From positions 30,132,001 through 30,196,000 of the forward strand of contig CM034546.1 in the NCBI GenBank assembly GCA_020055645.1: 64,000 nt of DNA, in the 5' to 3' direction. How positions within the stretch are numbered: position 1 is the stretch's first letter; each line of letters opens with the position of its first letter. This DNA comes from Tomocerus qinae (lineage: Eukaryota; Arthropoda; Collembola; Entomobryomorpha; Tomoceridae). Both the position numbers and the translations under genes were made by a program. Below, one piece after another: positions 23,890 through 64,000 of the stretch. The notes under the pieces were generated by a model. That model saw nothing but the letters and a program-made list of their open reading frames with translations, ran no database searches and was not told the DNA's origin.

Positions 23890-26385
23890 TTACCCTTCTG
23901 ACTTGTTTGAATGTATAAATATGATAAGGCTCCCACGTGTTACCATGTATACATTTTTTGGTTTGAATTTATTTTTGTTTTCGAATAAAAATTCCAAACA
24001 GAAGACAATTACTCCTGCCAGAAAAACATAAAAGACGACAGCTATGTTGGAGTTTGTGAATGTCAAAGGCTGCAAATCATCATTATTAAGACAAAACCGA
24101 CATTTTCTAAACCCCTTCTTCTCAAAATATGATTTCCATTTGGAATATATTCCACTTTGGTCGATGTGAAGTAACCTATCTTTGAAATATGATTTTGCTA
24201 ACTCGAAGCTATTAAAGACCAAGCGTATTCCCTTAGTATTTCTAAGAATAGCATTCTCGGGTTTCCCAAAATACATTTGTCGACGTGGCTGGGGTACTTT
24301 TTCAGGATTCCAATTTGATTCGTCAATAAACCAGTGAAGATTGTTCTCTTTGTCAATATAGATTGAATTGGTGCACTCGGAAATGAACTGCTGCGGAGTG
24401 ACGGAGGGAAAGTTGGTGTTTATTATGTGTCTGTGAAAAATGGTGTCATTTAGTTTTATCAATTTAGACAATTGTTTGGAAGTATTTCTGCGATCTCCAG
24501 ATAATAATTCATGGTATAATATATAATCCAATTCATCAGCAAATGGCATTATCTCTAAAAAAAGAAATTTCACCTTGTATTTAAGAGTTCTACGCATCAT
24601 TACTATCTTTTGTGCAATATTCTTGTCACTGTTATCATCATCTTGCGAATTATTATACTTCGATGCACATTCGTTCATATCGTGTTTAAACGTAGAAAAG
24701 TTTCTGAAAAGGAACATCTCCACATAACATGTCGAAACCATAAGTGCCGAAAGCTCACTCTTGTTTATTAACCATTTTCCATTATGAGAACGAAATATTG
24801 TAAGTCCGGTAGAAACAATATGTTTATGATCAATGAGATCAAATATAGATTCTATTCTTTGTACAGGTGGCTCACTAATTACATCCGTGATAACAATTCC
24901 CTTGTATCCGTTGGTTATCACGATGAACATCAACAAAAGTGGGCCAATTACAAGTTTTAGCCAGAATAACTTTTCGTATTTACTGTGGAGAGAATAACTC
25001 ACTTCTAACAGATAAGCATATATAACTAATGGAAATATTAAATACATATCCCCCTTTAATCGAAGAACAGTTAGAACGAAAAAAATAACTGAGAGTGACG
25101 TCACAAGTAGACAAATCCACGTGAAAAAATCAAAAGGACGGGTAAAAGCTCTGAAGTTTTCATCGGCTTGGCTTAAAATGCTGCATGAAATAAAGTTATA
25201 ACCTTCTTCTGATGTTGGAATATATATATGTAATGATTCAAATAGAACATTTTTATCATAATCAAAACCTAACGTCTCTGAATAAAATTTTTTATCTCTG
25301 TGATCTTTACTGTCGTTTTCATATTCTTCGAGCGATAAATCTATTCGTATTCTAAGAGAGCATGGACCTTTACGCGATAAAGTGGCATTAGGTATATTCT
25401 CAATCAACAACGAACTCAAAGTTAATTCAATTGATCGTTTTGACATTGATTTAGCCTTCTGTATTGATAGGTCACACCATTGTTTTTCATTTTCATAATT
25501 TAAGTGAAAGGGGATATCGATTTGTATTGCAACTATTATTTCTCTCATGTACATATTTCTTATATGCAGTTGCCCTTTCTCGCTTGGTACGATGGATCGA
25601 GAAATACTACCTACACTTTTCACACTTTTATTATTAGAATATAATTCTAATGGAAGTAAATTTGATTTTCCACACAATTTACAAATTAGATAACAAAACT
25701 TGTCACTTTCTTCTGCAAGTAAAAAAAATTTTTTCAATTTTATATCAAATTGGGCATCAATACTTGCAGTAAAAAGAATTTCCCAGTAGGAATTCCATTT
25801 TAAGACATCATTAATTTTAGATAGGAGAAGCAAAAAATTATTTTGGTGTAATAAAATATGTACCATAGAATAGTCCGCTGAGTTATAAACACTATTTTCT
25901 AAGCGAAGTACGGAATTGTCACCGGGGGTAGGAAAAGGAATAACAAGATTTCTGGAAACGTACATTGCGAAATATATTTGTAAATCATCCGTGACATTCA
26001 AATTGACGACAATATGTGACAAACAATTAAACCGAGAGAAGAAATATGGAGGGGCAAATACTTGCTTCTTTATGAATGAACTTTTAACATCACAGACACT
26101 GAAAATGCTTTTACATGCCTTCACTCTTTCTGAAAAGGTTTGCTCCAGTAAATCGAATCTTGTCACTGCAAATGGAACTTTAATATTTGGCAGTTTTTCT
26201 AAATATGTTGTAGTCAATGCATGATTGTAATCCCATTTGTTAAATACTATATTTATATAACAATCGTGATCAACATTTACAATTTGTTCTAGCTTTGTTG
26301 GACTACTTGAAATAACATCCGGAGAGATAATTATTGTTGCAATGAGTGTGATAGTATAAGTTAGCGCAGTTAATCGACGAAAAAT
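23890..26385 (-). pseudogene. IR-like receptor, duplicate copy 2, start codon lost
   Basis: The codon aligned with the ATG of the other copies is ATT (26383-26385), and no in-frame ATG lies between it and the upstream stop. From there the frame stays open for 831 codons: signal segment, CYINIVFNKW, TSEEGYNFISC, M1, pore, M3 with GYKGIVITDV, the S2-like lobe ending in DQSGIYSKW, and M4. The C-terminal tail differs from copy 1 after about VTRGSL, where small indels change the frame and stop it early at 23890. The body resembles copies 1 and 3 but has diverged more from them than they have from each other. Non-AUG initiation or an upstream start exon cannot be excluded; the long open frame suggests recent loss or some remaining function. 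Confidence 0.75.
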
Positions 26386-27100
26386 TTTGTTGCTATTAAA
26401 TTGTAAAATGTTTGCACAATAAAATGTTTTTTTAATTCATAAAAGAATTTTTGACTTCCTTAGTAATTAATAACCATCCATAAAAATTAACAAATGAATT
26501 TTATCCACTAGAAACATCTAACAATGTAAGTCCAGCGTTCACTGGTTTATTTCCACAGACTGAAAGAGTTATTTTAAGTTTTAAACTTTAAGGACAGTTT
26601 GGACTATTTTGGTTTTATTAAGGGAATGGTGCATGCTTCAAAAAATTCAAATTGTGTTTGCCACAAATGGATTGGCTCATTCTTCTTTTCTGAAGGGTAA
26701 GTAAATAAATTACAATTCTCCTATTTTTGGAATTAAATATTTCTTTTAGGTGAAATAATGATGATGTCTTGAGTACGTTTGAAGTATTTAGGGTCTGCTT
26801 AAACACCCAACCACTCAATCCAAATACGCCGTTGGCTGTCACCAAGTGGGATTATTAGTGGGGTAGTGCAATGCTACCGCTGGAAAATGGAAGGTCAGTA
26901 GTGTGGTAAATAGCCAAAGCAATTTTTTCTTTTGCTACTACTGTGTTTGCAAATGGCCGGGTCAAAAATGGGAAACAAGAGTTCCATTTTAGCCGGCGTT
27001 TTCACATTTTACCCACCCACCCGGGCAAAAAGTTTCAGTGACCAATTTTTAGCTCCTGGAAACGATGAAAATCGATATAGATAACCACCAATCAATTGTA
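26386..27100. other. 5' flank of IR copy 2 and unrecognised sequence
   Basis: 26470-26600 matches the flank of the other IR copies (AAAATTAACAAAT, GGTTTATTTCCACAGACTGAA at 16.12 kb). Beyond about 26.65 kb the sequence is unique to this copy. The small ORFs show no family features. Confidence 0.45.
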
Positions 27101-39050: not shown

Positions 39051-42000
39051 TTTCTTGCTATTAAGTTATGAAATTTTTGTACAATATAATGTTTCTTAAT
39101 TCACTTAATAGTTGTTAACTTCCTCACCATCAGTATTATTTCAAATAAACATCATCCATGAAAATTAACAAATCAATTTTACTCGGTAGAAAATTATGCG
39201 TTCACGGGTCTATTTAAGTAGTTTTTTAAAAAGTTTTTAACCATTAAACTTTGATTGAAACACAGTTTGGACGAGGATTTATTAATCACTGTGGCACATT
39301 TTTTACTACGTTTACCAAAAATGCAAACAATTAGTATTTTTGAACATTGAATAACTGAAATATCGTTTTATTAATTCTTTATCTGCTACACTTTATGTAA
39401 TGTTCAATTTTTAGTGATTGACCTAAAAATATTTTCGCAAAAGTCATTTCTGTTGATTTTTTTAAACTCCTTTCCAAGCTGCAGAAGTCATAGGGCTGAC
39501 AATAGGGCGAAAAATAGTGCCAAGGGACAAAGAGCGCAACCATGTACTAGGCCGTTTGTGGCAGCCCTGTTATAAACGACCGTGTAGTTAAGTAGACTGA
39601 AATCTAAGGCATAATTCTGATGCATACAAAATGTAGATAATTTTTTTTTATAATGTATAAATCAAGACTTCAATATTAGCGGATGCATTAGTAAAGTTGT
39701 TTTTACTAATATTGCTTTACGGTATTTTTACACGCAGAATCAACAAAATTTTGATTTCCTTAAGACAGTTATGCCAGTGTTATAACCATAAAAATTTCAT
39801 GAAGTTAGACTCACCCATCGGAACGAAATTCGGAACGAAGGATATTGAATGCGATTAATTCCAACCCAATAACGAAAGATGTCCGTTAAAGCGAAGGCTC
39901 AGATAAGTTGTAGAACTGGACTATTACAAGTTTGTGACGTGTTTCCAGGAAGTTACCAAAAGTAATCTTTGTAATAGATCTGTTGGAAAATTATTTACTA
40001 CCGCAAGAATTGACTCGCTAATATTTTATTTCCATCCATTCCGTCAGGCCTAATTAAATTTCCCGAAAATGTTTTGCAAATGCAGACAACAAAAAATCCA
40101 TTTTTAATATAGTTAAAATATTTTCTTTTAGGTCACAATAACTTCTTGATACCTATATTAAAAACTAGGGATTGTAAGACAGTATATATAGCTAGAGGTA
40201 TGCTTAAATCAATGGACATTCAACATTCAGCTTGTTAATGTATACTACCTATATATGTCAACATTCAGGAAAGTATTGTCATTAAATATAAATGAAAGAT
40301 TGCCAAAGCAGCTAACACTCAACAAAAAGAACACTGATATATGGGTTATGGTTATGATATTATTCATCGTTTAGCTGAGTAAGGAGTTGGGAAAACCAGG
40401 TTCAATGTGAATTTTGTATCCATTCGTATACATGTTAATGTAGGATGAGAACACAAGTCAAATATCAGTTCATAACATTTAGTCATTTTTTTATAGGGGC
40501 AAAGATTTTATAGGGTCCTTATAAAAATGTAAGGAAAGGAATGATTTAACCAACCATACTATAGGACACACAACATTTAATAATGTATAAAAGTATGAAT
40601 TCCATATAATGTTTTTCGGTGGTAGGTCAATTTGGCAAAAGCCATTTTGGCAAAAAAATATTTTTTTTTCAAATTGACCACTGTGGATAATTTGGCAAAA
40701 CGAGTCGGATAATTTGGCAAAACGAGTCGGATAATTTGGCAAAAGACGGTTTAAGTAATATTTAAGACGCTGCAGGACATGCTGTTTTATGCTGGGTTCA
40801 GTACTTAATGAGATGGTTATGCATGTTAATACGTTCTAGTTTGTACCAATCATTTATCATTATCACTCACCTCTCAGAATCTTATGAGGAATTGCTGAGC
40901 CAAAATTAAAGTACGTTTCCCAAACGCTGACCAAAGTAACGCATAAGTTGGCTCGTATTGGATATTCTTATAGTTTGCGAAACACTTATGGACAGAAGAA
41001 ATATTAGTACAGTACCCCAAGGGAGATTTGTACTGCATCGTTAATTGAAAAAGAAGGAGTGTTTACTTGTGGCCGTAAAGGTTGGAGGGATGGAAATGTC
41101 TTTCCAATACGAAGGTGGTTATTATATACTAAAATAAACAGTCGACTTAATAAAGCCACCAAAAATATGGAAGCAAGAGGTTTCTCCTTTCAAAATTTAT
41201 AAAAATCGTTGCCATGAACTTGAAATAATTTTACCATCATTTTAACAAAGCTTGCTTATCAAATTTACACTTTGTGTATATAATTTATATGACTTATTAT
41301 GGATATTCCAAAGATACTCATTAATTTTGTTTATTTGATTAAGTTATTATAATTGTTTATGACTTGATAATAATAATGTTTGTTTTTATTGACCTGTAAA
41401 GCTATAATAAATGAAACTTGAACAAAAACAGCACATTTTGCCAAATTATCCGCTTTTTTGCCAAATTGACTTTTGCCAAAATGACCAAGAACAAACCCTA
41501 CCCAACCGTTATTTAATGTCAATGCTCGGTCGGAAATAAAACTTTTGGTGTTAAAATTAAGTACGGTTTATAGAAATGAGAAACTTTAAAAGGTTTTGGG
41601 TATTTTATACATATTGTATAACAGTAGACAGTCCATATAGGTATAAATTCCTTTCCAATTTCTGCTTGAGTTCTTTTGCAAGATGTAATAATATGTAATC
41701 CAATGCAGGCTTTACTAGCATCTTGGCTTTAATTTTACATAAATACAGGAGAATACATAAAATCAATGTCAATTGCACTGTATATATTTAAAAGGATGTA
41801 AATAATAGACAATACTTAGGTAGTCTCATATAAAGTCTACAGAATATCATTAATCTGCCTTATATTACATGTACAATATTTCATAGGGTGTTCCTTGAAC
41901 AGGTAATTAATAGGTAGTTAAAGAAAATTACTGACTTAAACAAAGCGGTGTCTATAAAATGATAACCTTAAATGGTACTAGTTTTTCTCGCCATTAAGGC

Positions 42001-43340: not shown

Positions 43341-44257
43341 CAGAGGCGGCGTTCCCAATGGGCAGACTGGGCAGTTGCCCAGGGCCTCGCGCTTTTGGGG
43401 CCTCGCGCAGAGCTTTGACAAAGAAAGAATTTCACCTTGTTGGTATTGATTTCACTTCAGAAATACTGCATTTTGGTTTAAGTTATACGTTTTGTTACAG
43501 CTTTATTACAGAACAATTTTTAGAATTCAAGGAAGAAAAGTATACCGAAAGTAGACATCGCGCAATCTAGTAAAAACATTTTGGTGACACGAAATTGCCT
43601 GCATCTCTCAGAATTATTATAGAATTACTATAATTAATTATGCATTTCAATCCACAATTTTGTAGTATTTTGCGATACCAAAACTGCGTAATTGTAGTAG
43701 ATGTAGACAATTATGTTTCCACTAATTGTTTTTTTTGAATTTTAAAAGAAATAAAGAAATTTTAAAAAAATTAATAAAATATCCAAATTCTAAAATGCCG
43801 GGTAGCGCCTACATAGTCTTTAACAGAGTCTTAGGGTCTTATTTTGAATAAAGGACGTATTGAGGTGGAAACCCTTATAGGCTGAAGCCCCACCCCAAAA
43901 TCCAAGAAAAAAATATTTTTTCTCAAAATAGCAAAATAATTGATTATTTGCCAGTTTTAGGCCAGTTTTGACTAGTATTTGTCAAAAATTGACAAAGTTT
44001 TTCGCGCTGAGCGCGAATATATGTAATTGATATATAAGTATCACATAATATAGTCCTTCCCGAAACTCACTTCAGTACACGTACTTGTTTTGTTTTCTAT
44101 ACCATTTAAAAAACCGTAAAAAATTTTCACGTTAATTGTTCATATGCCAAATCGTAGATTTGAATTAATATAATAATTTGCATATTTGTGAATTATTATT
44201 ATGGGGCCTCGCGCGAACATTTTGCCCAGGGCCTCGCAAATCCTAGAGCCGCCACTG
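43341..44257. mobile_element. hAT-like element, 917 bp, 8-bp target duplication
   Basis: The ends are CAGAGGCGGC and GCCGCCACTG. The octamer CAGGCGAG is duplicated at 43333-43340 and 44258-44265. The paralogous locus at 35.44 kb has a single AAGGCGAG without insertion. Both arms carry inverted GGGCCTCGCGC/GCCCAGGGCCTCGC motifs. An 8-bp target duplication and CAG-GGCGG ends are hAT hallmarks. It has only a short ORF (43328-43570) that is not transposase-like, so it is non-autonomous. Confidence 0.88.
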
Positions 44258-44932
44258 CAGGCGAGTTGCTCTTCTGGTGTTTTCAAGATCATATATGTAT
44301 GTACATTAGTTGAGTTGAGAGGCAAAGGATTCCTTTGGATAAGAACTTTGTGAGGCCTGCTTGTTTTGTACAGAGTGCATTGACATAATACATTGAAATT
44401 TGCACTGCACATGCATAAGGATACTAGAAACACCATACCAAAAATTTAGAGATGGTATATTTTAAAGAGATAAAGATTTTTGAATAGAGGGTTCTCTACC
44501 ATTGATTTAAATGGGAAAAGCATTTTACTAATATACCTTAGCGATAAAACCTTAGTGCATAGGATTATCAGCCCAAAATTTTTACCTTGGGTTAATAAAC
44601 CATTTTAAAACATATCCTATTATTTTTGCGTATGGTATATTTTTAGATTTTGAGAAAATCTAAAAAAGTTACAAGAAAGTACTAAAAGTATTCAAAAATT
44701 ACATTTTCAATATATTATATTAATGTTCTGTGTGCTGTATACTATTAAGTGTCATTAATGAGCAGATTAAATGGTTGCCATATACATTAGCACACTGGCT
44801 TTGCTACAGGTAAATAATATAGATTGTCACAACTTACAACAACTCTGTTGCATGAAATAAACATTTTGCAAACGAATAGCGCATATCGAATGCTAGCATG
44901 TCGAATTTAGTGAATGAAGTGACTTTAATTCA

Positions 44933-45178
44933 TTGAGCAAACCAATTAATTCAACAAACCCGTCGGAAGAGCAAAGACTACAGTTGCCAATTCTGTCAGC
45001 GGAGATTCTCAAGTTCTACAACCTCATGATCCACGAAAGATCCCATCTCATCGAACAGAACTTTTTCCGTGACATCTGCGGAAAGACTTTTAAGAAACAA
45101 GAATACCTCAAGCAGCACAGGTTACTACACTCACTTAATCATTATCAATTCATTGATTGTGGGGCAAGGCGAGATTAA
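44933..45178 (+). pseudogene. Degenerate C2H2 zinc-finger fragment
   Basis: The 81-codon frame contains FFRDICGKTFKKQEYLKQHR followed by LLH: the CGKTF-x5-L-x2-H-x3-H half of a C2H2 finger. The first zinc Cys is replaced (R before DIC), and the preceding HERSH and following H-x-C-G stretches look like neighbouring fingers. The start codon at 44933 is TTG, not ATG. It lies inside the 5.5-kb transposon, upstream of the transposase and in another frame. It may be a captured host exon or an eroded DNA-binding part of the element. Confidence 0.5.
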
Positions 45179-45330
45179 TCATCTTTTTGTGTTTAGAATT
45201 CTTGTTCACAATTCTTACTAAAAGGAAAAAGTCGTCGCTGTCTCTAAAAACTATAACCTTCTTCTTGGCCAAAGTGAGACTGACTTTCTCGAACTAACCA
45301 ACTCAGCCCTCAGTCAATTATTACTTCTGG

Positions 45331-47641
45331 ATGAAAATGCCGACCATCTACAAATATTGTGTTGTCTGCTACGGAGAAATTCGTTCTACAAAGCAACTAA
45401 GAAGGGCTAAAACACCAAAATGCTGGGCCAGAATTGAGAAGTATTCTGCATTCCTTGTAGATGTTCACAACGAAAAAAGACTATTTGATCGAAATGGATT
45501 TATATGCACAGATTGTCATTTGTTTCTTGTCTCAAGTGTCTCATCAGGTAGATTTCGTCGAATTCAAACGTTGCGTGAAACGGAAATTGTCAATGTTGGT
45601 ATTGCATCTAGACCAACAGAGATCGTTTTCGAACAATTGCCAATTACCATCTATCCTGATCGAAATGTTGACAGTCAAGCAACGACAGTTTATGAAGACT
45701 CCATTTCTGATGACAGTATAAATAGCTTATCGTTTAGCCAGGACTTGGATAGTTATTCTTCCCTTGAGTCTCAAAACTCAGGAATTACTAATATGAATCA
45801 AGGCTCAATTTCTAGTTCTACTTGCTTTTCTGTACCTAAGAATTTAGTGAAACTAAATATCAATGCTTGCTCTGGTACTCAAAGTAGATATTTCATTTGT
45901 AAAAGGACTGATGGTCGTTTCCACGTTCCTAGGTCGGCTGTCATTGATGTATGGAATAAGAAACAGATAATTGTACCATTTAATAATCGATGTTGTTTGT
46001 CTCACATCAGTGAAAACGGATTATTCACACCTGAAGCTTTAGAAAATATTTTGGCTAGTAAAACTCATATCTATCTTAGCCAAGAGGAAATAAAGCAATA
46101 TTTTATTTCAATGGCGGAAGAATGTAATTCACCGAGTTATGCTAAAGTTGACTTCAATCCTGGCTCATCTTTAACTGATTGTGATTACCACATGCTGACC
46201 GGACTATCAAAGCTGAATTTCAACCATCTGCATGATTTTATCTGCCCCCACCTAAGAAATAGTCATAACCGGAGTACCCGAAATGCTCTTGGGCTTTTCT
46301 TGGCAAAACTGAAGTTAAACCTTTCTCATGACTTTCTGGGTTTCCTATTTGAAATTGATGGACTAGCAAAAGTAAGTGCAACATTTGAATCTGTCCGAAA
46401 AGCTCTTGAGGAGAATTTGGTTCCAAAGTATTTGGGATATAGTCATATAAGTAGACAAGACGCCAGAAAACATCAGTCCAAAATGGCTTCAACTTTATTA
46501 AATACAAATAACGATGCATTAACAGTAGTAATAGATGGAACGTACCTATATGTCCAGAAATCATCAGATCATTTATTGCAAAAGCTAACTTATTCGAGTC
46601 ACAAGCACAGAAACCTATTGAAACCTCTGATGATCACTTTTACTGATGGCTATATATTGGAAGCTGAAGGTTTGTTTTATGGAGATGGCAATAACAACGA
46701 TGCTAAAATAATGAGCTGCATTATGGATAAACCCTATGGATACTTACTTCAAGGAGAATGATCAGTTGGTTCTCGACAGGGGTTTTCGGGATGTCATTTC
46801 AGAATTAGAAGCCATGGAATACCAAGCATTTATGCCACAGTTGCTAGAAAAGGGACAATTACAATTTACGACGCAGCAAGCCAATGAGAGTAGAATAGTC
46901 ACGATGACCCGTTGGGTTGTGGAAGCTGTGAATGGAAGATTGAAAAAGTTTAAATTTTTTGATTCGGTGATTCCAGTTACTTACTTTCCTAAATTAAGTT
47001 CACTACTACGAATAGCTTGCGAACTGATGAATGCATACTCTCCTTCTTTACTTGAAGAAAATGAGACACATCAAAATATTGCGTTATTAGCCCTTCAGAA
47101 GCTTCATCAAATTAATATCATGAAGCAAAAGGTTGAGGAAATGGAGCTTGAAAAGGCAAGATCTGCGTGGATTGAAGATGATGTGAAAGATTTTCCTCTC
47201 CTTACTCAGGATCAACTTAAGTATATTACGCTGGGCGTTTACCAACTCCATTTAGCAATCAGTTATACACGTCGACATCTTGGTGCAGACTCAAAATACA
47301 AAATATTCTGTCATAAGGATCCTCAAATCAGTAATATCATCCGAGCTAAGATCGCAAGTAGATTCGTAAGCAAAAAATTACATCAGGTTTGGGTAGAATA
47401 TGATCCAAATAAAGAAGGAGAAGACGCAATTGTGTCATATTACTGCATGTGCAAGACTGGAAGTCGGGTTGTAGGATGCTGTAGTCATGTTGCTTCTGTA
47501 ATATGGTACTTAAGTTATGGTCGGTATCATACAGAAATCTTGAACAAGAAAAAACGAAATTTATCAAGTAACATTCTGAATGCGTTAGATGCTTTTCAAG
47601 ACGGCTATGAAGATTCTGAGGCCGAATCGGATGAGGATTAA
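45331..47641 (+). pseudogene. DDE transposase with C-terminal SWIM zinc finger, one frameshift
   Basis: Frame 1 (45331-46761) holds an N-terminal Cys pair module (CVVC about 10-13; CTDC about 59-62), a Ser/Asp-rich linker, a helix-turn-helix region (about ALGLFLAKLKL to SATFESVRKAL) and the first catalytic block, IDGTYLYVQKS, then LMITFTDGYI. Frame 2 (46736-47641) holds the second Asp block LVLDRGFRD, the Glu block WVVEAVNGRLKKFKFFD, and a SWIM finger YYCMCKTG-x6-CCSHVASVIWY (C-x-C, then C-x-H), ending in an acidic tail. Together the D-D-E set looks complete. The frames meet at 46729-46740: one extra base, most simply in the AAACCC run, separates them. Native +1 frameshifting is possible but unproven. 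The role is DNA cleavage and integration of the surrounding 5.5-kb element. Confidence 0.8.
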
Positions 47642-48910
47642 GACTGGCTTAGAATTTCAATTCTTTTATATGTATATTGTGTTGTCGATTAAGTTTATTC
47701 TAGTCTTGTTATTTGTTATTATTATTTGTTTATTTGTTTGTTGCATTTGTTAATTTTGTGTATTCAGTAACAATAGTTCATTTTGTGAATTTCACAAATT
47801 CATCAAACTCCTTTTTGATCTAATGTTAATTGACATACTAAAACTGTGAATGCCAACTTTATCAAATGTGATTGACTCAAGGCGGCTATATAGCAATACA
47901 TTACACAGGTGAGGAAAGGACTATATTACCATTGAAATGATACGGAAAAACTCTGGGACGGATGGTCCAAGCTCATGGTACCAATCCAAATTCAGTTAGG
48001 AACTCATTTTCATTCGAATGATCATAGAGATACCCTATCATACAAATTAATAGTCATTTAGTTTCCAAATTAATTTTGAACTACTTAATCAAAGATTTTC
48101 AACCGATATCCATACTCCAGGGTCAGCTCCGGGCAATGGGAAGTTGCATAATGTTCATGATTCATGATCCTCTGTCTCACTCTCAGTTCCTCCAAACTCG
48201 TTGACCCCATACCCCACAGGCGTGAGTTAATAGAAACTCCTTGAAAACGACAAAATTAATCTACTTAAACTACATTTCATTCAGCCGGCCATTTTTGTCA
48301 CTGGTTATCAAAGATTTTCAACCGAAGTCCATACTCCAGCCTCAGCTCCGGGCAATGGGAGGTTGCTTAATTATCATGATCCTGTCTCATTCTCAGTTCC
48401 TTCAAACTCATTGACCTGACCCCATGTGAACCTGAGAGATTACGCGACAACATTAGTAAAACGGAACAATATTAGTAGAAAATATTTCCCATGAAAATCC
48501 TGTTGAAAATAAACAGTATCACTAATATCACCGAGTGATTTTCCTCGAAGAAATAATTTCCAGTCACAACCTTCTCAAATACACTACAATTTGCACCCCA
48601 GAGTAAACCATGCAATATTTACACTAAGAAAATGTAATTTTCTCTTATTATAGACATTCTTATTATAGACATCTCACATTAAAGACACTTATTTAGTTGT
48701 GAAGTTGTAATAAAATTTTAGTATTCCTGATCACTGTCATTTCATAGCTCCCAACCGAAATGTTATTGATGACAAACAATGGCGAATCCCATCGCCCCTA
48801 TGACTGATATTTTAAAACTGATCACATCTTTGATACATCAAGCTAACATTTTATATTTAAAAACCCCATTGACAATTGATTGTACAGCAACCACCTTTTG
48901 TGTTCATATT
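47642..48910. other. Non-coding 3' part of the 5.5-kb element
   Basis: No ORF. It holds a direct repeat pair (about 48087-48210 and 48304-48430) and an AT-rich stretch with TCTTATTATAGACAT twice near 48640-48670. Confidence 0.45.
48087..48430. repeat. Direct repeat pair of about 125 bp, spaced 217 bp
   Basis: The words ATCAAAGATTTTCAACCGA, CCATACTCCAG, TCAGCTCCGGGCAATGGGA and CTCAGTTCCT-CAAACTC occur in the same order in both copies, with small differences. They could be subterminal repeats of the surrounding transposon or a duplicated fragment. Confidence 0.75.
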
Positions 48911-49067
48911 CAAGGGCGTATCCAGAAATCAAATTAAGGGGGTGCTTAAACATACGAGCTGATTTTTCTTATGTATAAAACTACTTTTTACCAATTTTTG
49001 AGAATTATCTAGTGGGTTTTTGGGAAATTTAGGGGGTGCTTAAGCACCCCCCCTAAATACGTCCTTG
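48911..49067. mobile_element. 157-bp MITE, hAT-like
   Basis: The ends CAAGGGCGTATCCAG and AAATACGTCCTTG are inverted. Inner arms AGGGGGTGCTTAA and TTAAGCACCCCCCC are also inverted. The flanking octamers TTCATATT and TGTATACT match only 5 of 8, so any target duplication has decayed. It is nested in the 5.5-kb element. Confidence 0.7.
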
Positions 49068-49771
49068 TGTATACTGTTTAAAGTACAATCAAGATCAGGT
49101 CGTCGACAGTCCGGCGGTAGACACATTTATGGGTGATATGTAATTGTAGCCCACACAATTAATCACCTGAGTCTTGCATGTCACAATAGCTTTTATATTG
49201 AAAGAAAAAAGAAATTCACTTTCCCTTGGTTGAAAAAGAAATATATTGCAATTACACAGACAAATGTACAAATTATAAAGAATTTTCATTTTCATTGTAT
49301 GCATCTAATTGTCAGTGTCCAAAGATTTTTGTTCGTTCTATTAGTACTACTCTACTTGTGCCTATTTACCTCTGGGAGCGTAAAAATGTTATGACATCTT
49401 AGTCATGTTTCAAATTCGGTTTAATTTCTCCCGTAGTTAGGAATCGGTTGATTTTTAGGGGGACTTTTTGCATTTGTAGAATATCCAGCTACAAAAGTTG
49501 GGTTTATGATAAAAACTCGCTTTAAAAAATTGAACATTCCAAAATGAGGGACAATTTTTAACAAAAGTTAATCGTTGCCTGTCGCTACAAACGAGAATAT
49601 TTTATAAAATGTGGTAATACAAAATGTAGTCCATAGTTGTCAATGGTTTGAAATAATATTGGAAAATGTAACTGTGGTAATTGCCAAGCTAGTCTTTCCT
49701 ATACAAAGAGGAAGGCCCAGCACCCACAGTTTTAAAAATGAAAATTTTAATTCACTATAGCCTAATTCAGG
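49068..49771. other. Right non-coding end of the 5.5-kb element
   Basis: AT-rich; the minus ORF at 49095-49304 shows no family features. Nothing else seen. Confidence 0.35.
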
Positions 49772-49791
49772 CTCTAATCCAAAGGGATCCT

Positions 49792-50542
49792 TTTCATTGA
49801 AATTATTTATCAAATGCAATTATTTTCTAATTTATGCTATGCAATGTGACACTCAAAAGAATAAATTATCAATGTCCTTATCAAGTTCCGATTGTGCAGA
49901 CTTGAGACTTTCAGCCGAATGCCCAGTATAGTGTGACAGTATTTTGTACAACGTCCAAAGCTTCTTTTATTTTCACACCGGGTTCTATTTCCAATCCAAA
50001 GCAACTTTGTTTGATATCCGTGTAACAGACTGCGAATACAACCATATCCACTTAATCCAAACCTATACTAAGCTAACCGACATTCAAAAGTAGCAAAATA
50101 AAAACCTGATCTCCTTCCATTAGTTAATAATTGATTCGTCAGTGGTTTTACATATTATTTCAATGCTTTTGTCCAGATTTTTGTTAACTTTCAGTTAATT
50201 AACATACCAACGTCATACCGAGTACATAAAATTGGGAAAAATTTATAGATGTGTGCAGTCGGGAATTTCCAAGTAAACGAAAAAGTAACTAATAAAAATG
50301 ACAAATTTCGTAATGCGTAATTTTTGACCTTCAATTTGTGAAGTCAAACGCTGCCAACCCATGCATAACGCATAATCTATACTAACATGATATTTTTGGT
50401 ATTACTTTGACCATAATAGTTTCAGTCTGTTCAAAATTACCAAGGATTTTGATTCAGTAGAAAATAAATCTCGATCCATTTTATGTAGCCCAAACTCCGG
50501 TCTTGCTTTTAAAGCTTAAATATCCACTTTATGCTTCATTAA
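49792..50542. repeat. Duplicated flank E, copy 2 (right part)
   Basis: 49792-50240 matches 35500-35960: TTGTACAACGTCCAAAGCTTC, TTTCACACCGGGTTCTATTT, AATAATTGATT. The remainder to 50542 is unmatched AT-rich DNA with no gene. Confidence 0.75.
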
Positions 50543-51689
50543 CAGACGTCGGAATTTTATTTATATAAACTTTTTTCAGACTGATCTGAGAGTCGTGAGA
50601 TTTTGTATCTCGACGTTTCATACCCTAAGGATTTCAAAAATGTAAAAGTCTTAGAAAACTTTTTTACATTTTTTGGTTTTAAGAAAAATTAAAGTTTTAG
50701 TAAATATTTTTTCAAATAAAAAAAATTTACTAACATTTTTCGGAATAAAAAAATCTTAAGAAAATTTTTTGAGCATTTTCATGATGTTTTTTACAAATTA
50801 TTGAAGATTTGTAATTTTTTGTATTGTCTACAGCCAAAGGGACCCAAAAATTGATAAAAAAGTCACTTAAAAAATATTACAAAATGGTTTTTATATTAAC
50901 ACGTATGCATGTGACAGATTGGAATTTTGTATGGTGGGACGTTTTAATAAATGTGTAACTTTGTATGGCTGGTTGCGACTGAAAATATGAATTTGTATGG
51001 CAAGGTTGTTGGTGTTAATTTGTTTGAAAATACATGCCAATAGGTCTAAAAATATGTTTTATGTTTCAATACAAAATGTGTGCAATTGTTGGGTATCTTT
51101 TTGACTTGATAGTATTTACGTTGATGAACTCGAAGGGAATCTTGTATGAGAATAATATAACTCATATACCATAAACATAAACCATAAATTAACACTAACT
51201 TCTAACCCTGCCATACAAATTCATAATTTCAGTGGCAAACAGCCATACCAAGTAATACAATTATTAAAAAGTCCCACCATTGAGGGTATACCAAAATATA
51301 TTGTTGCACGAAAATATTTTGGATTTTTAACTATTTTTGACAAAAAAATCGTCTTTTTCTGGAAATTTAGTGGGAAGCTGGGGCTCCTCCAGTCCCCCCT
51401 CTTGATACGTGCTGAACATTGGCCGATTTTTTAAAGCTTTTTGATTCCCTAATCCCCTGCGTACATTTATTATACTATGATATCTCAAGTTTCAGTTTTA
51501 AATACGGATTTAGTTATGTAGGTAGCATTTCAACTCAACATAGAAAAAATTTTTAGTCGATTATTTATAGCTGCTTTTGCGATTTTAAGCTTTTTTTTAA
51601 GAAAATTTTTCCGTAAAATTTTTGCCCTTTTTTAGTAAATTTTCGTGTAAATTTTTTGGGTTTTTAAATAAATAAAATTCCGACGTATG
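50543..51689. mobile_element. 1.15-kb hAT-like element, 8-bp target duplication
   Basis: TTCATTAA occurs immediately before 50543 and immediately after 51689. The ends CAGACGTCGGAATTTTATTT and its inverse (CATACGTCGGAATTTTATTT) agree at 19 of 20 positions. There is no ORF; the interior is A/T homopolymer-rich. It encloses a second inverted-repeat structure (arms about 50935-51045 and 51178-51285). Non-autonomous. Confidence 0.85.
50935..51285. repeat. Internal inverted repeat with about 105-bp arms
   Basis: The left arm includes TATGGTGGGACG, GTATGGCTGGTTGC and ATGAATTTGTATGGCA; the inverse of the right arm has the same words in order (ATGGTGGGACTTTTTAATAA, GGTATGGCTGTTTGC). The arms are roughly 80-85 percent alike. 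This may be an older MITE nested in the hAT-like element, or its own core palindrome. Confidence 0.7.
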
Positions 51690-51879
51690 TTCATTAAACA
51701 GATTAATTTTAAAGTATGCAATATCCCACCATTACTATCTTGTAAAATTATAAATGCTTGTTTATAATTATTCGACACATATATTCATAATGCCTATCAT
51801 TTGCATACAAGTATAGTTAATAGAGTTTTACAAAACTACAGTATCCATATCAAAATTAGATATGTTTAATAAATTAGTA

Positions 51880-52085
51880 ATGCCCACCGATACCGACTGA
51901 CCAGCTCTGGCCGGGTTACCCCAGTTGGCTGTTATTTTGCCAGATTATCACCCTATATATAGTATGTACAAGTAGTCCCATAAAAATTGCCTAGACTTGG
52001 GCAGGGATCAACCCGGGGGACCCGACAGTAGTGGTCTGATCTATCCCACCGAACGCGCTACTAACCAAGCTACTGATGCTTCTTG
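51880..52085 (-). mobile_element. tRNA-derived SINE
   Basis: On the minus strand a box A-like TAGCTTGGTTAG (52072-52061) and a box B-like GGTTGATCCC (52013-52004) lie about 50 nt apart, as in a tRNA. An unrelated body follows to about 51880. The head cannot fold as a full functional tRNA with CCA-ready ends, so I do not call a tRNA gene. A partial copy of the same insertion is at 18541-18605. Confidence 0.65.
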
Positions 52086-53715
52086 TTGGTATCTGCCTTT
52101 GTGTATGACATGACTCTATAAATTAGTTTAAACAAATTTTATATCCATACAGCAAATTGTTAATGGTTCCAGTGAATAATATTTGTTGCTGGTGTTTTAC
52201 CGCAGATATATAACTAAAAATAAACAACAACTACCTAGTGCCTATAGTACAAAATATCTTCACTCAAAACATATTTTATTTTCTTGTCAATTTTCAAATG
52301 CAAAATAATCACAATTAAAAAACCAAATTTATTTAAATTGGAAACGTTGTTGAAGTTAAAACTCTGTTAATAAGGTGGGTGAAGCCACTATTTGCCTGTA
52401 ATAAATAAATATATTATAGTGAAATAACTATGTATGCTATTTATTGTTTCTATTTTTACAGTGGAATATTGTTTGAAATCACTACCTGGGAGAAAAAAAT
52501 GCCATTTCAGGAGAACATCATTTTCGTACAAACCATCTGGGAAGCCAATTTTGTAGACGATTTCGGCATTTACCTTCGATATTCATCCCGTAACGACATA
52601 CCGGATGAATAAGTCCAGAAGTAGCCGCCTGGGCGATATAACAATTCCCATTCAAAATTACCCCATTACCTTTCGGACAAACGGGTTTTTGTATTTCATT
52701 TTTATTTAATGATCGCCACAGGCGAAAACCGTTTTTTCCACCACGAGTGTCAATTGACAATTCCAATTGATTCTTTGTCTTGTAGTGAAGGAATGGTGAT
52801 GTCACTTGTAAACTTAGTATTTGAACAAAGCAATATGCAATGAATGTTATTAGTAAGATTCCGTGGTGATTCATTTTGTGACGACACAAGAATTATTTCA
52901 CCGTTTTTAAATATCTATGCGTAAATTGGACAATAGAATAGCAGTAAGTTTACAGTTATTTATTAGTGTAATTCCATCAAAATATATTAAGATCTGTTTT
53001 TCTTTTTTGGCTTAAATACACACAGGGGCAAACCAGTTAGAGAATGCGTGATAAATAGTAAATAGGATTTAATGAATTGAACGTGAGTTAAGTAATCATG
53101 TTCAATGGTTTATCTAATAATACAGAGAAATGTCATTGACACTAATAAAACAATGTCGTAATAAAACAACCAAAACCAAGTACCGGACATTGCGGTAATT
53201 CTGCATGAACCTCGTTGTAAGATATTTAATTGAGTAAAACTATTCTCTTTTGCATTAAGGGAAATCTAAATAGATAATAGTGATAAATTAAGGAAAAGTT
53301 TTGTTGTAATCGATTATAAAGTCAAAGGAAAATATAATACTGTTCATATTAGTATCCAGAATCAGGATGTATATTATATTATTAAGCATTGAGCCAGAAA
53401 TGTTTACAAGAAGTAACTATTGGACTGGATTGGATATATTAAACATTGTATTTTCATAAGCAAAGACTAAATTTTACAGATGACTTAAATTATGGTTACT
53501 CCTTATCTACAAGACTTTTCTCTATGACCGTTTACTGGCCCTAGGCTTAGGTTCTATATCCTAAACTTACAATTATATCCTTACTTATAATTATCATGTT
53601 ACTGGATACACAAATACTATACTATTACATACAAAAAATAACTTGGTGGAATATGAAACTTTAATAATAATGACTATCAAATAAAATGAATACATAGCTG
53701 CATTGCATAAGATAT
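52086..53715. repeat. Duplicated block D, copy 2
   Basis: Collinear with 18606-20260 (about 1.6 kb). It contains the intact secreted-protein gene at 52518-52874. Small indels separate the copies. Confidence 0.85.
52518..52874 (-). CDS. Small secreted 4-Cys protein, intact copy
   Basis: A 118-residue protein from ATG at 52872-52874. A hydrophobic N-terminus (MNHHGILLITFIAYCFVQIL, about 1-21) looks like a signal peptide. The mature part has four Cys in CPKGNG, NGNCYIAQAA, HPVCRYGMN and GKCRNR, then a basic, aromatic C-terminus (WLPRWFVRK). The C-x-G-N-G-x-C and C-x-YG-x-G-x-C spacing recalls EB-like or other small disulfide modules, but I do not recognise the family. A possible AATAAA (complement of 52440-52445) lies about 75 nt after the stop. 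The paralog at 19027-19387 is frameshifted, yet both keep all four Cys and most residues, which suggests real coding history. It is probably extracellular; function unknown. Confidence 0.65.
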   Translation of the reverse strand: MNHHGILLITFIAYCFVQILSLQVTSPFLHYKTKNQLELSIDTRGGKNGFRLWRSLNKNEIQKPVCPKGNGVILNGNCYIAQAATSGLIHPVCRYGMNIEGKCRNRLQNWLPRWFVRK

Positions 53716-55411
53716 TCGCTCAAATCTTGGAACAACGTGTGCAATTTTGTTGACTTTACCTTTACTTTACTATACATTTACCTGGAAAAAACTTGTAGTG
53801 GACGAAACCATTATTATATATATATCAATCATTTTGAAAGCCAACTCGATAGACTACTTAAAAACTTTTAGGACATCTTGGCTTTGACTTTGGAATTTCT
53901 CCTTTTCTGATCGACCGACATTATCGCATATACCTTGTGTCTGGGGCAAAAGAAGACTGAGCACAACCATAGAGGAACAATCGAACGGGCTCAGGGACGC
54001 CGCAGAGAACACGATGGAACAAGACAGAGAAAAAAGAACAGAGTCGTTGACGGAGAGCCGAACGAGTAACACGCTGCAGAGAGCAGAACCACGAGCTCAG
54101 AAAACTTAATGGAATTTTTAGTTAAAATAATTTCAGTTTGCTATACACATTTTATTGTAATTTTGTTGAATTCAATTTTGTGTTTTAGTAAATTGTGAAA
54201 AATACCCATTTTGTAGTTTAAGTAAAACTGCACCTTTTTGAGCAGGGCATAACGTTAGTGTCAGTGGCTCATCGATCAGTAGATCAACATTTGTGGGTTA
54301 TATTTTGTAAGTCCACTTAGCTACCTAGTTTTAGATATTTTTGGCCTAGAATTAGGATAGAGTCAAGCTGGCTAAAATATACCTTGTTGTCCCCACATTG
54401 TCCATTATTATTTGACAGTTCAAATGGATTTCTAATGGTTTCAATCGGCGTATTCATATGGAAACTTATAGTGTTTGCACAAAGTAATGCGTAATTGTAA
54501 TGAGCAATAAAGCAAACGCCGTCTTCTAAAATATATATTTCAATATTATTATAATTAATTACAGCGTCTATTTTGATATGTCGGAATCAGAGCAATAACT
54601 TTCACCTACCTATATTCACGTTCGTATTTCCCTTACAATATTTTGGTTTTCTGTGCTTTATCAACATTGGTACAAGAATTGTAAAGATTCTGCATTCAGT
54701 GAATTCCGCGAATGCCTAAATGAAAAGGTATAGGAATAGAAACGAGCAAACTTGACGTTTTATACTAATTAAAAAAATAACTATGGCATTAGAAATCGAC
54801 CGACGTCATCAAAAATAAATGCCGGCTATTTCGGTTACTTAATCACTGAAGTGCTCTGTTTTTATCAATTGTTGATAGTGTCTTCATGGATGTACAAGGA
54901 ATGGCCAAGAAGGAATTAGTATCCTAATAATTTAATGATCACGTTGAGCGTGTCCATACTGAAAATACAATTTATTTGGAAATAATACTTTTGACTGTGC
55001 TAGTACCTATTGCTGAAGAAAACCAACATAATGATGGGAAAATCTTACTAACTTTAGTATACTTATAAGTATGTTTATAATCCAAGTAATAAAGGAAAAC
55101 CACTTATAAAAATAACCAATAAAATCCTTCACCACATTAAAAACCAGGATTATTCCCTTATTCAATAGTCGTCCTAATATTAGGCTTGCATTTATGCTAT
55201 GACTGTCTGCCCTGTTGTAGGTATACAGATTACGTACACTATAATTTAAAATTTCACACTTACATTTGCATTCTAATTATATGGAACTTTTATGTTTTCT
55301 ACTTAGCAGCATTATTTACGTAGTATTTATCATAAAGTGACAGCAGTAAATACAATGATAATAAATAAATCATGTAAAAAAAAGAAAGTGCATTTCAAGT
55401 GCATGTAAAAG
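53716..55411. other. Intergenic region between block D and the NB-ARC gene (left)
   Basis: There is no supported gene. A GC-richer patch at 53860-54090 reads on the minus strand into a short frame from an ATG (MSVDQKRRNS) that stops after 17 codons; it might be a decayed first exon and UTR of something, unproven. The rest is AT-rich and unmatched. Confidence 0.35.
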
Positions 55412-56059: not shown

Positions 56060-56471
56060 CAGTGTTGTGCAGTGGTTAAAACCACTAGTGGTCATAATGG
56101 TCATAATGGTCAAAATGGCCCGGTCAAAAAAAATTAAAAAGTGGTCAAAATGGTCAAAATGGACAAAATGCCTGCTTGGGGTTAATTGAGACCCCAAGGT
56201 AGCTTTTACTGCAACAGTAAACAACAAATACAACTTTCTAAAGATTGCAGTTAAAAATGATTAGAGAGTGTCATTCTGTAGTCTGATGTTAGTAAAATAG
56301 TGTTTCATTGGTTTTAGGCCATATTTCATTCTCTAAATATTTTAAATTTCATTTGCTAGCCTAAGTAACTGTATACTGATATTTTGTCCATTTTAGCCAT
56401 TTTGACCATTTTGACCATTTTGACCAGTGGCCCGGTCAAAATGCAAAAAAGTGGTCAACAGTACAACACTG
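56060..56471. mobile_element. 412-bp hAT-like MITE, perfect 8-bp target duplication
   Basis: GAAAATAC is duplicated exactly at 56052-56059 and 56472-56479. The ends are CAGTGTTGT and ACAACACTG. The arms are packed with TGGTCA(A/T)AATGG-type repeats on the left and the inverse (ATTTTGACC) on the right, typical transposase-binding subterminal repeats. CAGTGTTG plus an 8-bp duplication is classic hAT. The short ORFs inside read through the repeat and are not genes. Confidence 0.9.
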
Positions 56472-57549: not shown

Positions 57550-60426
57550 ATGTCTATTAATATAGAGAATATCAATTCTTCCGGTTCAGGAAGTATCGGT
57601 GTACAGAATATTTACGGAAATATTGGAGATATTTCAACAGGTAAGAATATTATTTTTATTATGTCATTCGACTTGCTTTTTATATCATGCAATTGCAAAA
57701 CAGTATCTTAAACACTTTCAGTTATTTGTAATTCCTCGTTTAGAAAAAAGTTGATATTATTGACAGTTAATTAAACTTCGCAGTTACTTCTGTCCGTTCA
57801 ATGTAATTTGACCCAATTTAAAGACTATTTATGTACGAAAACAGTGTTATGCTTATGCATCTTTATTCCAGTAAATTTTTACAAGTTGACTATGTAAAAT
57901 TTCAAAGTAAAATAAACTATATACAAATATTCAAACTTATTAAATTCCCATGCTTGTTTGATAGAGCGTGTTCTGGAGAAATGGTACCCATATAAGCCGA
58001 AACTGCCATATTCTTTCCAGGAAAGAAAGTACAATGGGGGCCTTTTTATTAAACATATATACTACATACTTCATCTTGTCTCTAAAAATGGAAATTACAT
58101 CATCGACCGTCATATAGCAATTACAGGTTTTGGAGGAATCGGAAAAACTACCGTTGCAAAATGGTTTGCACTTGAATACGAAAACGATTATGAACACATA
58201 TTTTGGATTGACTGCTCAAAAGAAAATATTTTAAACAGTTTTATAGTGATAGCAGATCTTCTCAATATTCAACAAGCACGATGTCATACCACTGTTATCA
58301 CGTTGGCAAATGCTTGCTTAAACGATATTTCAAAAAGAGCCGACAGATTGAAATGTCTTTTTATTTATGACAACGTTGAGAGTTATAAAGGAAAATATGG
58401 TATCGAAAACGTATTACCACCATCAAAAAATCAAAATTTTCACACAATAATAACATCACGGTGGTCACATTGGGGAAATTCCTGCGGGCATGGAATTATA
58501 CAGCAGTTTAAATTAGGCGTTTTTGAATTAGAAGAAGCAATGGATTTTCTTCAAAGAAATTTGCCAAAAATACAAGTTCCATACGAAACAAAACAATTAA
58601 AAGAACTTTCTGAGTTTTTTAGCTGTTACCCATTGGCCTTACAAATCACCGTTTCCACACTTGAAACAACAGGTCAAACAATAACAGAATATATTGACAA
58701 CGTTAAGAAAACGATTCTAATTTCAGATGCCTGTATGGACACGTATGAAAAATCAATCGTGGACTCTATGAAATCCTCACTTGGATCAATTAAAGACAAT
58801 GAAAATCTTGGGGAATTAGCGATAAAAATATTGCAAATATTTTCGTATCTCCACCAGAATATTAAAGGCAAAGATTTTTTCTCAAAGGTTCTTCAAGGCA
58901 AATTCACTGATGGCGAAATTGATCTGGCAGTAGAACTCCTGGTAAGACATTCTGTTATTACTAAAGATTGTTCTAATGAAAATCACGGTTTGATAAGCAT
59001 GCATAGAATGGTACAATTGGCTTTAAGATACATTTATGCAAATGAAGAAATAACAACTTTGAGGGACATATTAGCGTCGGAAATTTTTCCAGAACATAAA
59101 ATACTCCCATGCAAATACGCACAAAAATATTTGCAGTTACAACCTTTTATGAACTTTCACTTTACTGAAGATTCCGCGACGAGAAACTTTCTGGGAAATT
59201 TGATAGACCAAAAGAGAAATGAAGAAGCAGTGGAATTATCCAAAATGAAATTGAACAATATAGACTGTAACAGAAGCATATTCGTTTGTTACATATTTAT
59301 TGCCATTGCCTATGGCCAAATTCTAAGCACTTCTATCAGACAAGTTGACCATGCACTAACTACAACGATTAGTTTCATACTAATTACAATCGGATTGGCG
59401 ATTGTATTTTATGTGCTGGCGCCCCTAATTACAATAAATGGCTTCTACCTTGTCAGCAATTATTCAAAATGGACTAAAATATTGTATTGGTTTCCTCATT
59501 TCAGTTCTTTTAATTCACGCAGCTCTTCTGCTGCAATGCTATTCTACCGCATTATATTGTTAATCAGTTTTGTAGCTCCTTTTCATATAACCCTTCTAGT
59601 TTTTTACAATTCCTATATTAATGCAGGTAATTATACTAATAATACTAATATTTATGCTAATAATACTAATAGTGATACTTTCTGTTTCGTTAAATTTTTG
59701 TGGGAATTTAACTATATATTTACTACATATATAATAGATGAACTTAACGAAAATGGTTATCTGATACTGTTTCAATTTTTAATAGCGATGTTGTTTTATG
59801 AAATCCTTCTTGGGCAATACAAGTATAACTATGCCGTTTGCCTTGCCAAAATTGGAAAATTGGAAACTGCACTGATGTATTTTTCCCAGGTAAAAATAAT
59901 TTGTATGCGCAGCAGTTGTACCGATCATGATAGTTTTATTGATTTAGCTCCTATACCTTTATCAAATGGTTTAGGACCATGTGGTTTAGCTAGAGATCTA
60001 TGGTTAATTAGCTTAAAGTCTCGACTAGGCCAGTGCATAGGAAATGGCAGTTTTAAAGAACTTATGAAGTTGAGCCAAATTAAAATTAAGGGACCCCACT
60101 TGGAACTTGATTTGACCCTTTTCCATAGTTTTCAAGATATAGAACTGGTTGACGTAAAACTGTTTAATAGGCCTATCACAAAGACATCAATTCGAAAGCT
60201 GAAATTAGATCGGGTAACTTTTGTGAATGATCAATTGGAAGATTTGGAGCAAATCAGTTTCCATAACTTCTTCTCACTACCATTAAATGAGATCGTCCCA
60301 CTAGATGAGCTAATTATAATTTCCAATGATTGTTACACCTATATCAAAATTAATGCGGATATTATAAAAGGAACAGCCAAAAAATGTAAATTACTACCCA
60401 ACTATTTGTACTCCGAAATCTGTTAG
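57550..60426 (+). CDS. NB-ARC (NLR/STAND-type) protein with N-terminal amyloid-like motif and C-terminal hydrophobic segments
   Basis: Proposed exons are 57550-57640 and 57965-60426 (GTAAGA donor, TTTGATAG acceptor, phase 1 joined as G+AG), giving 850 residues. Exon 1 encodes about 30 residues, with NSSGSGSIGVQNIYGNIG. NB-ARC follows: P-loop GFGGIGKTT (about 85-93), Walker B LFIYDN (about 162-167), HTIITSR (about 190-196), CYPLAL (about 251-256), and a winged-helix region with MHRMVQ (about 376-381) in place of MHD. Hydrophobic stretches lie at about 468-485, 498-522, 556-578 and 629-646; the loop before the last has N-x-T sequons (NYTNNTNIYANNTN). A TPR-like helix pair (YAVCLAKIGKLETALMYF, about 653-670) comes after, then an unrecognised 170-residue C-terminus. 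The family acts as ATP-driven switches in immune or cell-death signalling; that role here is inference. The ATG lies in GCC-ATG context (CGCCATGT). Confidence 0.8.
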
Positions 60427-62609: not shown

Positions 62610-64000
62610 TCAAATTTGTGGGCAATATTCAGGTTTAAATGTCACACAGGTCTGATCCACATCATAGAAATGCATTCCCTTGGGGCATTTTTCAGGTCTG
62701 GAGATGCGCTTTCCATTTTTACATTCGTACCAACTTTGGCAATCGTTCGCCATTGGCATTTTGGTAAACCCAACATTACTGGGACAGAATAGATGATCAA
62801 TTATAATTTCCACATCCAGCTCAGTTGATCTGTACGTATCCTCACATCTGGCCTCGGAGAGGGGCTTGCATTGAAGAGAATCAAGGTCGAATTTTGTCCC
62901 AGTGGGACATTGGCTCAAAATTGGAACACCATTCAAGCAAAGAGTGTACAAACTACAGTTCCCTGTCACAACAAAATAAAAAGACTTAATATTGTTCTTT
63001 TTGTACACCCAACCCTTTTTTTAAATTCGGTGGCAAAATAATGAAGTTGATTGTCACCTGGAAAAGGAATATTGACAATTCCGGTTGGGGGACAAGAGGG
63101 AGCTGGAGTTGTTGTCCTTGCGGTTGTCGTTGTTGTACGTGTTGTTGTAGGTGGCGCTGTTGTTGTTGTTGTTGGCCTCGTTGTTGTTGTAGTTGGCCTC
63201 GTTGTTGTTGTAGTTGGCCTCGTTGTTGTTGTAGTTGGCCTCGTTGTTGTTGTGGTTGGCCTCGTTGTTGTTGTAGTTGGCCTCGTTGTTGTCGTAGTGC
63301 GCAGAGTAGTTGTTGTAGGTGGCGGTGTTGTAGTTGTAGTAGGATTTGTACAATTCACCAAATGTTGGAAATTGCAATTCTCCGTTACAGGATCAAAATA
63401 CAAACCTTCGGGACATTCTCCAAAACCAATAATATTTCCATCTTGACATGCAAAATAAAATTCGCACCTTGTGGGATGGGGAACTAATTTGAACCCTAAA
63501 CAGTGTTCATAAAAATTGTTTAGTTCATCGGAAAATACTAGAAGGGTGTTATCATTTGCTCTACTAATTACGCAAGTGGTAAAAATAAATTTTGCAACGC
63601 ACAATTTAAAAATCAAAAAAGAAGAAACCTAAAAGTTATATAGCTCAAATTACAAAAACCTGAAAGCGAAAAGCATGTGATTCGTAATACCCATGAAAAT
63701 AAATATGCAAAAAGTAGACCTGCTGATGGGCAACCATTGGGAAGTTCTGTTGTAGTTGTTGTTGCAGATGTAGTTGTCATCCTGGTTGTCGTGGCTTGTG
63801 TAGTAGTAGTTGTAGTTGGTCTAATGGTAGTGGTACCAGATTCTGTTTAATTAAATGTTATTCACCTAAAATTATTTTTTATTGTATAGTATTAATTTTT
63901 TAATCTAAGAAACAATTTAGACCTGGTGGCCTAGTTCCTCCGACACATTCGGGCACATTTTGAGGATAGTCACAGATTCCAACTTCAGGGTTGAAGTACA
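62610..64000 (-). CDS. Peritrophin-like chitin-binding protein (CBM14 domains, Thr-rich linkers), 3' part
   Basis: Minus-strand exons: from beyond 64000 to 63923, then 63842-63720, 63495-63058 and 62962-62610 (stop). Every junction is GT-AG in phase 1. Exon 1 here ends a CBM14 domain (YFNPEVGICDYPQNVPEC). Exon 2 is a Thr-rich linker ending NGCPSA. Exon 3 continues as GFKLVPHPTRCEFYFAC, completing a second domain, then (TTTTTRP)n mucin-like repeats and the start of a third domain, CPPTGIVNIPFP. Exon 4 continues GNCSLYTLCLNG and adds a fourth domain (FCPSNVGFTKMPMANDCQSW onward). CBM14 binds chitin in peritrophic matrix or cuticle; Thr/Pro stretches are usually O-glycosylated. The protein is secreted by family rule, but its signal peptide would lie off the right edge. 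The hydrophobic stretch before HCLG in the unspliced frame is intron. No damage seen. Confidence 0.85.
63174..63299. repeat. In-frame 21-bp minisatellite, six units
   Basis: GGCCTCGTTGTTGTTGTAGTT repeats with GGCCTC at 63174, 63195, 63216, 63237, 63258 and 63279. On the minus strand each unit codes a 7-residue Thr-rich block (TTTTTRP). Because 21 is a multiple of 3, copy-number change keeps the frame. It also keeps other frames open on both strands, which creates spurious long ORFs there. Confidence 0.9.

Follow-up and report, generated by a model that had tools for sequence, protein, structure and literature searches.

A predicted springtail NB-ARC receptor gene with a short motif exon in the place of a CARD, and a second copy of the motif beside CARD exons

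The window analyzed here, a stretch of 64,000 nucleotides (C1:30132001-30196000) of a 334-Mb springtail genome in 115 contigs, contains a predicted NB-ARC receptor gene that opens with a short motif exon where its relatives in the same genome carry a CARD. Elsewhere in the genome, two CARD-encoding exons precede a second copy of the motif by 0.9 kb on the same strand. We hold it to be an even call whether a homotypic, possibly amyloid, tag connects this NLR, which lacks a CARD, with a CARD adaptor, the CARD exons having been replaced by the 91-base motif exon. From the second copy beside a CARD, the functional idea of an earlier sequence-only reading, an arthropod NLR signaling through a prion-forming motif, gains support that is real but not conclusive.

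Gene model and protein

The predicted product of 57550-57640 joined to 57965-60426 is an 850-residue NB-ARC protein with the N-terminus MSINIENINSSGSGSIGVQNIYGNIGDIST. Its features are as follows.

57550..57640, + strand: first coding exon, 30 codons plus 1 base, encoding MSINIENINSSGSGSIGVQNIYGNIGDIST, with start CCCGCCATGT and donor CAG/GTAAGA
57641..57964, + strand: putative phase-1 intron, GT...AG, 324 bases
57965..60426, + strand: second coding exon including the stop codon, residues 31-850
58111..58722, + strand: NB-ARC domain, residues 80-283, P-loop GFGGIGKTT (Pfam PF00931, E 5.3e-9)
59275..59811, + strand: residues 468-646 of the C-terminal part, with three to four segments predicted to span the membrane (Kyte-Doolittle peaks 1.76, 2.70, 2.33, and 2.02)

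The letters make a strong case for the gene model with 57550-57640 as first exon. A GT stands at 57641, right after this exon, and the acceptor AG occupies 57963-57964, so the exon joins 57965 in frame at phase 1; the sequence-only reading had described this join correctly. The ATG lies within CCCGCCATGT, in a Kozak-like context, with an in-frame TAG just upstream (by eye), and among the 3445 GT sites that the window has on its + strand, the donor ranks in the best 2. For the acceptor at 57965, the ∼7 kb upstream offer only two phase-1 exons with an ATG and a donor above 4 bits, and 57550-57640 outscores its sole alternative (7.37 versus 6.22). Since the frame of exon 2 has no Met ahead of the P-loop, an upstream first exon is required. 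About 1 kb upstream of the gene, at 56090-56470, we noticed short tandem GGTCAAAATGG-type units with an inverted recurrence ∼300 bases on, which by eye resemble the ends of a small inverted-repeat element.

At 36 bits, the PF00931 match is above the cut-off, and the domain includes a P-loop, as expected of an NB-ARC NLR. No CARD was found when the full 850-residue protein was scanned against Pfam with E up to 10; the first exon holds the motif. Kyte-Doolittle peaks above 1.8 occur in 1 of the 28 relatives that have more than 330 residues available behind the P-loop. A weak helical-repeat match covers about residues 637-676 of the exon frame. The protein shares an NB-ARC-type NTPase with the bacterial FxSxx-COOH TPR proteins (NCBIfam NF040586, fxsT), which matched residues 60-377 of the exon frame at E 6.3e-30, but at 104 bits it falls under the 300-bit cut-off of that family. 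Nine plasmid records matched the gene at 23-28% identity; the motif was absent from the five N-termini read among these nine, which had other starts, one of them TIR-like by eye. No relatives were found in genome contigs (NB-ARC part) or in viral contigs (exon 2) by single-protein scans, which reach close relatives only. With no relative in these scans and plasmid matches of such low identity, the five N-termini read lacking the motif, we rejected a bacterial origin of the whole gene.

A CARD-NB-ARC family in the same genome

At least 126 NB-ARC places (126 scored of 253 candidates) are above the PF00931 cut-off in this genome, and the window gene, with its 36 bits, is outside these 126 scored matches. 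Such a number is large for an arthropod-like genome. By eye, the places cluster on C1, many of them at 28-38 Mb and 61-72 Mb. When the second exon was used as the query, 54 other places aligned (55 scored of 320 candidates, self included), the best relative among those scored being 40-42% identical. The alignments stop by about residue 470; the C-terminal part is therefore private to the window gene, as far as relatives were scored. In our reading, the window gene belongs to a large CARD-NB-ARC receptor family, of which it is a divergent member that lacks a close paralog. Nothing on NB-ARC proteins in springtails or other Collembola was found in the literature searched, which consisted mostly of papers outside subscription.

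We sampled the family through 50 frames from the PF00931 search and 4 further relatives. The second half of a CARD was recognized by a text pattern in the same exon in 38 of the 50 frames, a count to be read knowing that the pattern misses the CARD of L007, that some frames are near copies of each other (e.g., L012/L015, L026/L069, and L021/L070), that L006 yielded only 71 residues and is probably a wrong frame, and that L035 is short. All four further relatives carry a CARD by eye, and the joined CARDs of two of them matched Pfam at E 1.9e-10 and 8.7e-10. CARD half-domains of five NLRs submitted alone gave one match at E 1.3e-4 (L007), two at 0.011-0.025, and two results without a CARD match. 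The CARD half mostly precedes a KWWP linker, where the window gene has KWYP. Thus, the window gene and the family have a homologous NB-ARC and KW.P linker, at up to 40-42% identity, but differ at the N terminus, which is a CARD in family members and the motif exon in the window gene. As the CARD of the relatives sits at the position of the motif exon, the window gene would be a relative of the CARD-NLRs with a motif exon in the CARD's place. The sequence-only reading had suggested that this NLR may signal through a short motif instead of a CARD, TIR, or death domain. The replacement stands, given the CARD pattern in most relatives and the separate, short Gly/Asn/Ser/Ile exon here, but the words "instead of a CARD" are perhaps half right: the motif may reach CARD signaling through an adaptor. 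Six NB-ARC relatives (L018, L008, L019, L020, L068, and L082) had N-termini other than a CARD in the frame read, that of L018 being HEPN-like by eye.

The motif, its second copy, and a candidate CARD partner

The shared motif and the CARD exons beside its second copy (locus L038) are located as follows.

57553..57621, + strand: 23-residue motif SINIENINSSGSGSIGVQNIYGN, common to the CARD-side exon at G000:C1:71108670-71108738 (12/23 identical, gapless)
57598..57621, + strand: core GVQNIYGN, pattern match at G000:C1:30189598-30189621
L038 6101-6220 and 6367 onward, same strand as the motif exon: CARD exons of the candidate partner (joined Pfam CARD E 3.5e-8, above the cut-off)

The sequence-only reading had related the first exon, of which NSSGSGSIGVQNIYGNIG forms residues 9-26, to the RHIM, PP, and sigma amyloid motifs. 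Pfam contains models for RHIM and for fungal prion motifs. A Pfam scan of the motif with E up to 10 named no RHIM, PP, or prion-motif family, its sole match being KRE1 at 0.14, in a search whose HMMER filters lose short matches; PDB searches with the motif gave no match either. Profile searches thus gave no match that would support membership in RHIM, PP, or sigma. The core of RHIM and PP motifs is G-phi-Q-phi-G (PMC7885112, excerpt), also given as NxGxQxGxN (PMC9815663, excerpt). The window motif reads G-V-Q-N-I-Y-G-N, with N-I-Y between Q and G, and so departs from the RHIM/PP/BASS3 core; the proposed kinship is not supported. The same reading had taken a hydrophobic-Q-x-hydrophobic-x-G core as a mark of such motifs. 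A six-frame translation of the window contains hydrophobic-Q-x-hydrophobic-(x)-G 25 times, the first-exon copy included, and we discarded this core as evidence; by eye, none of the 24 other matches resembles the motif. The exon stands out from chance through its longer match to another copy in the genome, and not through the core itself.

A tblastn search of the 30 residues against the same genome returned only the exon itself and C1:71108670-71108741 (2 candidates, both scored), the latter at E 0.535. A genome search for the same motif beside a signaling domain, which the sequence-only reading had called for, thus gave one match, beside a CARD. SINIENINSSGSGSIGVQNIYGN and TINIPSISVAGNGNIGMQNFFGN align over 23 residues without a gap, with 12 identities plus S/T, V/M, I/F, and Y/F changes. 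Shuffling the partner 23-mer 50,000 times never reached their BLOSUM62 score of 70 (maximum, 54), and the next-best score in 683,300 six-frame windows of sampled DNA was 33, loci picked by pattern being set aside. The reversed query and 400 shuffled queries, run against 541,400 windows each, scored at most 58 in 217,101,400 comparisons; these amount to about a third of a genome search, in a biased sample composed mostly of the window and NB-ARC loci. Extrapolation from this control would put the chance expectation for a score of 70 at an order of magnitude of 0.01 per genome. In 5.46 Gb of order-3 simulated DNA, read on both strands, the maximum was 54. The composition-adjusted tblastn E of 0.535 is a conservative bound on the second copy. 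When the partner exon served as the query, an unrelated low-complexity protein matched at E 0.526, and the motif of the window gene was not among the 2 scored candidates; tblastn E values of ∼0.5 can therefore be spurious.

The DNA pattern G[hydrophobic]QNxxGN had 21 matches in the genome versus 10 for a backward control, an excess smaller than it appears, since near copies of one repeat (L042, L052, and L056) and of another (L060 and L061) are among the 21. As candidates for other motif exons, 19 of the 21 were rejected because they do not fit over 23 residues, the best being L062 (GIQNIYGN), with a score of 46 compared to 70; the flanks of L053 and L062 are themselves G- or N-rich. No copy of G[x][QN]N(1-3)GN was found in the 10 kb past the window or in window positions 44000-53999. 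The copy found is 40.9 Mb from the window gene, and the candidate partner is not adjacent as partners of NLR amyloid motifs are.

The gene at G000:C1:71.107-71.109 Mb, with a CARD in two exons followed by the motif exon, is the best partner candidate. The second CARD exon alone matched Pfam at E 0.012, below the cut-off, and a phase-0 break falls inside the CARD, as by eye in the CARD-NLR at L086. The best acceptor of the motif exon is at L038 7608, and the frame ends ∼0.25 kb later, so the motif, if spliced to the CARD, would lie near the C terminus of a predicted ∼210-residue protein. The predicted splice between CARD and motif exon is insecure. There is no strong donor from CARD exon 2; the best two, at 1.18 and 1.05 bits and in phase 1, could be used only with an acceptor located 10 bases after the obvious one. 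The donor of CARD exon 1 is weak too (1.54 bits), and the motif exon, which has its own ATG, may form a small gene by itself. A further pair of CARD half-exons, at L038 3570-4369, lies ∼1.7 kb upstream of the motif-linked CARD, with a stop directly after its second half; it looks like a CARD-only or decaying gene.

Proposed signaling route and its alternatives

In the scheme that we put forward, one 91-base exon with a short homotypic motif would have replaced the CARD-coding exons. The NB-ARC would oligomerize upon sensing something, as NB-ARC biology suggests, and the clustered N-termini would template the same motif in the partner, for which stacking into a small amyloid is the likeliest way. 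The templated partner would then cluster its CARD and join CARD-NLR or CARD-caspase signaling. The receptor gene without the CARD of its relatives, the two motif copies, and the CARD next to the second copy are seen in the sequence itself. The splicing of the CARD to the motif exon, the physical interaction, the amyloid form, and the signaling outcome are points that we infer; the templating of a CARD partner by a receptor motif is drawn by analogy with fungal PNT1/HELLP and with the RHIMs of the Imd pathway. The fuller claim, that an animal NLR swapped its CARD for a new amyloid-type motif and reaches CARD signaling through a dedicated adaptor with CARD and motif, an NLR amyloid relay of a kind described to date in fungi and prokaryotes, here assembled anew from local components around a core that differs from RHIM, we put forward tentatively and with some doubt.

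Imd contains a death domain, whereas the candidate partner here has a CARD. In the Imd pathway of Drosophila and Aedes, cryptic RHIMs are found on PGRP-LC, PGRP-LE, and Imd, such that an insect amyloid motif connects a receptor with an adaptor, much as proposed here (PMC9531809, excerpt). In the core of Aedes PGRP-LC, the third position is an N, a likeness to the window motif (PMC9531809, excerpt), but the cores differ and the receptors are PGRPs rather than an NLR. In fungi and bacteria, NLR amyloid motifs are recognized by the recurrence of a short motif on both the receptor and its partner. In Podospora anserina, PNT1 (PP motif, NB-ARC, and TPR) is the partner of HELLP, a HELL effector that bears the same motif and becomes active through amyloid templating (PMC7885112, excerpt). 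As in that pair, a motif of ∼30 residues stands N-terminally, directly before the NB-ARC, and a second copy occurs on a separate protein, where in HELLP it is C-terminal to the functional domain (PMC7885112, excerpt); here the joining of CARD and motif is only predicted. The systems differ in that the window gene lacks the G-phi-Q-phi-G core, the partner domain is a CARD instead of HELL, and helical repeats are weakly suggested where PNT1 has TPR. In addition, fungal and bacterial pairs are clustered (PMC9815663, excerpt), whereas our two genes are not neighbors. The bacterial amyloid signaling sequences BASS1-10 also come as Gly/Gln-rich receptor-side and partner-side copies (PMC8086366, excerpt), but they are bacterial. 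A strict DNA pattern of the motif had 2 matches in a collection of genome contigs, neither in an NLR-like frame by eye, a result that says little, as the pattern demands a Gly absent from the window motif.

A reading by chance, in which loss of the CARD left a neutral, flexible N-terminus as the first exon and an AT-rich background produced the second copy by coincidence, seems unlikely to us. The composition-adjusted E of 0.535, the 25 occurrences of the hydrophobic-Q core in the window, and the spurious match at E 0.526 with the partner-exon query all speak for coincidence. The score of 70 speaks against it, compared with at most 58 among the 217,101,400 shuffled-query comparisons and at most 54 in the 5.46 Gb of simulated DNA, as would a low prior for a position behind a CARD, if CARD exons number in the hundreds across the 334 Mb. 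It is also improbable, in our estimate, that the motif, although truly shared and used for homotypic contact or docking, is of a non-amyloid kind and would bind a common third partner or pair as a soluble beta-hairpin. Its low charge, its Gly/Asn/Gln/Ser/Ile make-up, and its extreme N-terminal place before the NB-ARC suggest a resemblance to known NLR amyloid motifs (PMC7885112 and PMC9815663, excerpts), although a docking motif would agree with the way in which the 23 shared residues stand out against shuffles, with the absence of the RHIM/PP core, and with an aggregation that is so far conjectural. Finally, the intact 850-codon frame and P-loop and the near-consensus splice sites leave a very slight chance that the window gene is a decaying CARD-NLR or a chimera without a signaling role, as might be thought from the 40-42% identity of its best relative (55 scored of 320 candidates), the end of the alignments by about residue 470, and the C-terminal membrane segments.

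If the tag-to-adaptor route is real, an animal NLR and a CARD partner with a common tag would join two designs, NLR-linked amyloid signaling and the amyloid motifs of animal immune pathways, and would show how signaling domains can be exchanged within one receptor family. NLR-linked amyloid signaling has been described as apparently confined to fungi and bacteria, although amyloid motifs do occur in animal immune pathways (PMC9815663, excerpt). No description of an amyloid-motif NLR in an animal was found in the titles and abstract openings searched, mostly of papers outside subscription.

The window holds other features. Related long frames that match nothing in Pfam, and that by eye look like receptors with membrane segments, lie at 3746-6187, 12316-15030, 23893-26436, and 36354-39065, the copy at 12316-15030 being interrupted by a stop at 13621-13623. 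Transposase sequence is present at 45298-47638, with DDE_Tnp_4 in two overlapping frames, and the - strand at 62613-63846 contains CBM_14 chitin-binding sequence with Thr-rich repeats.
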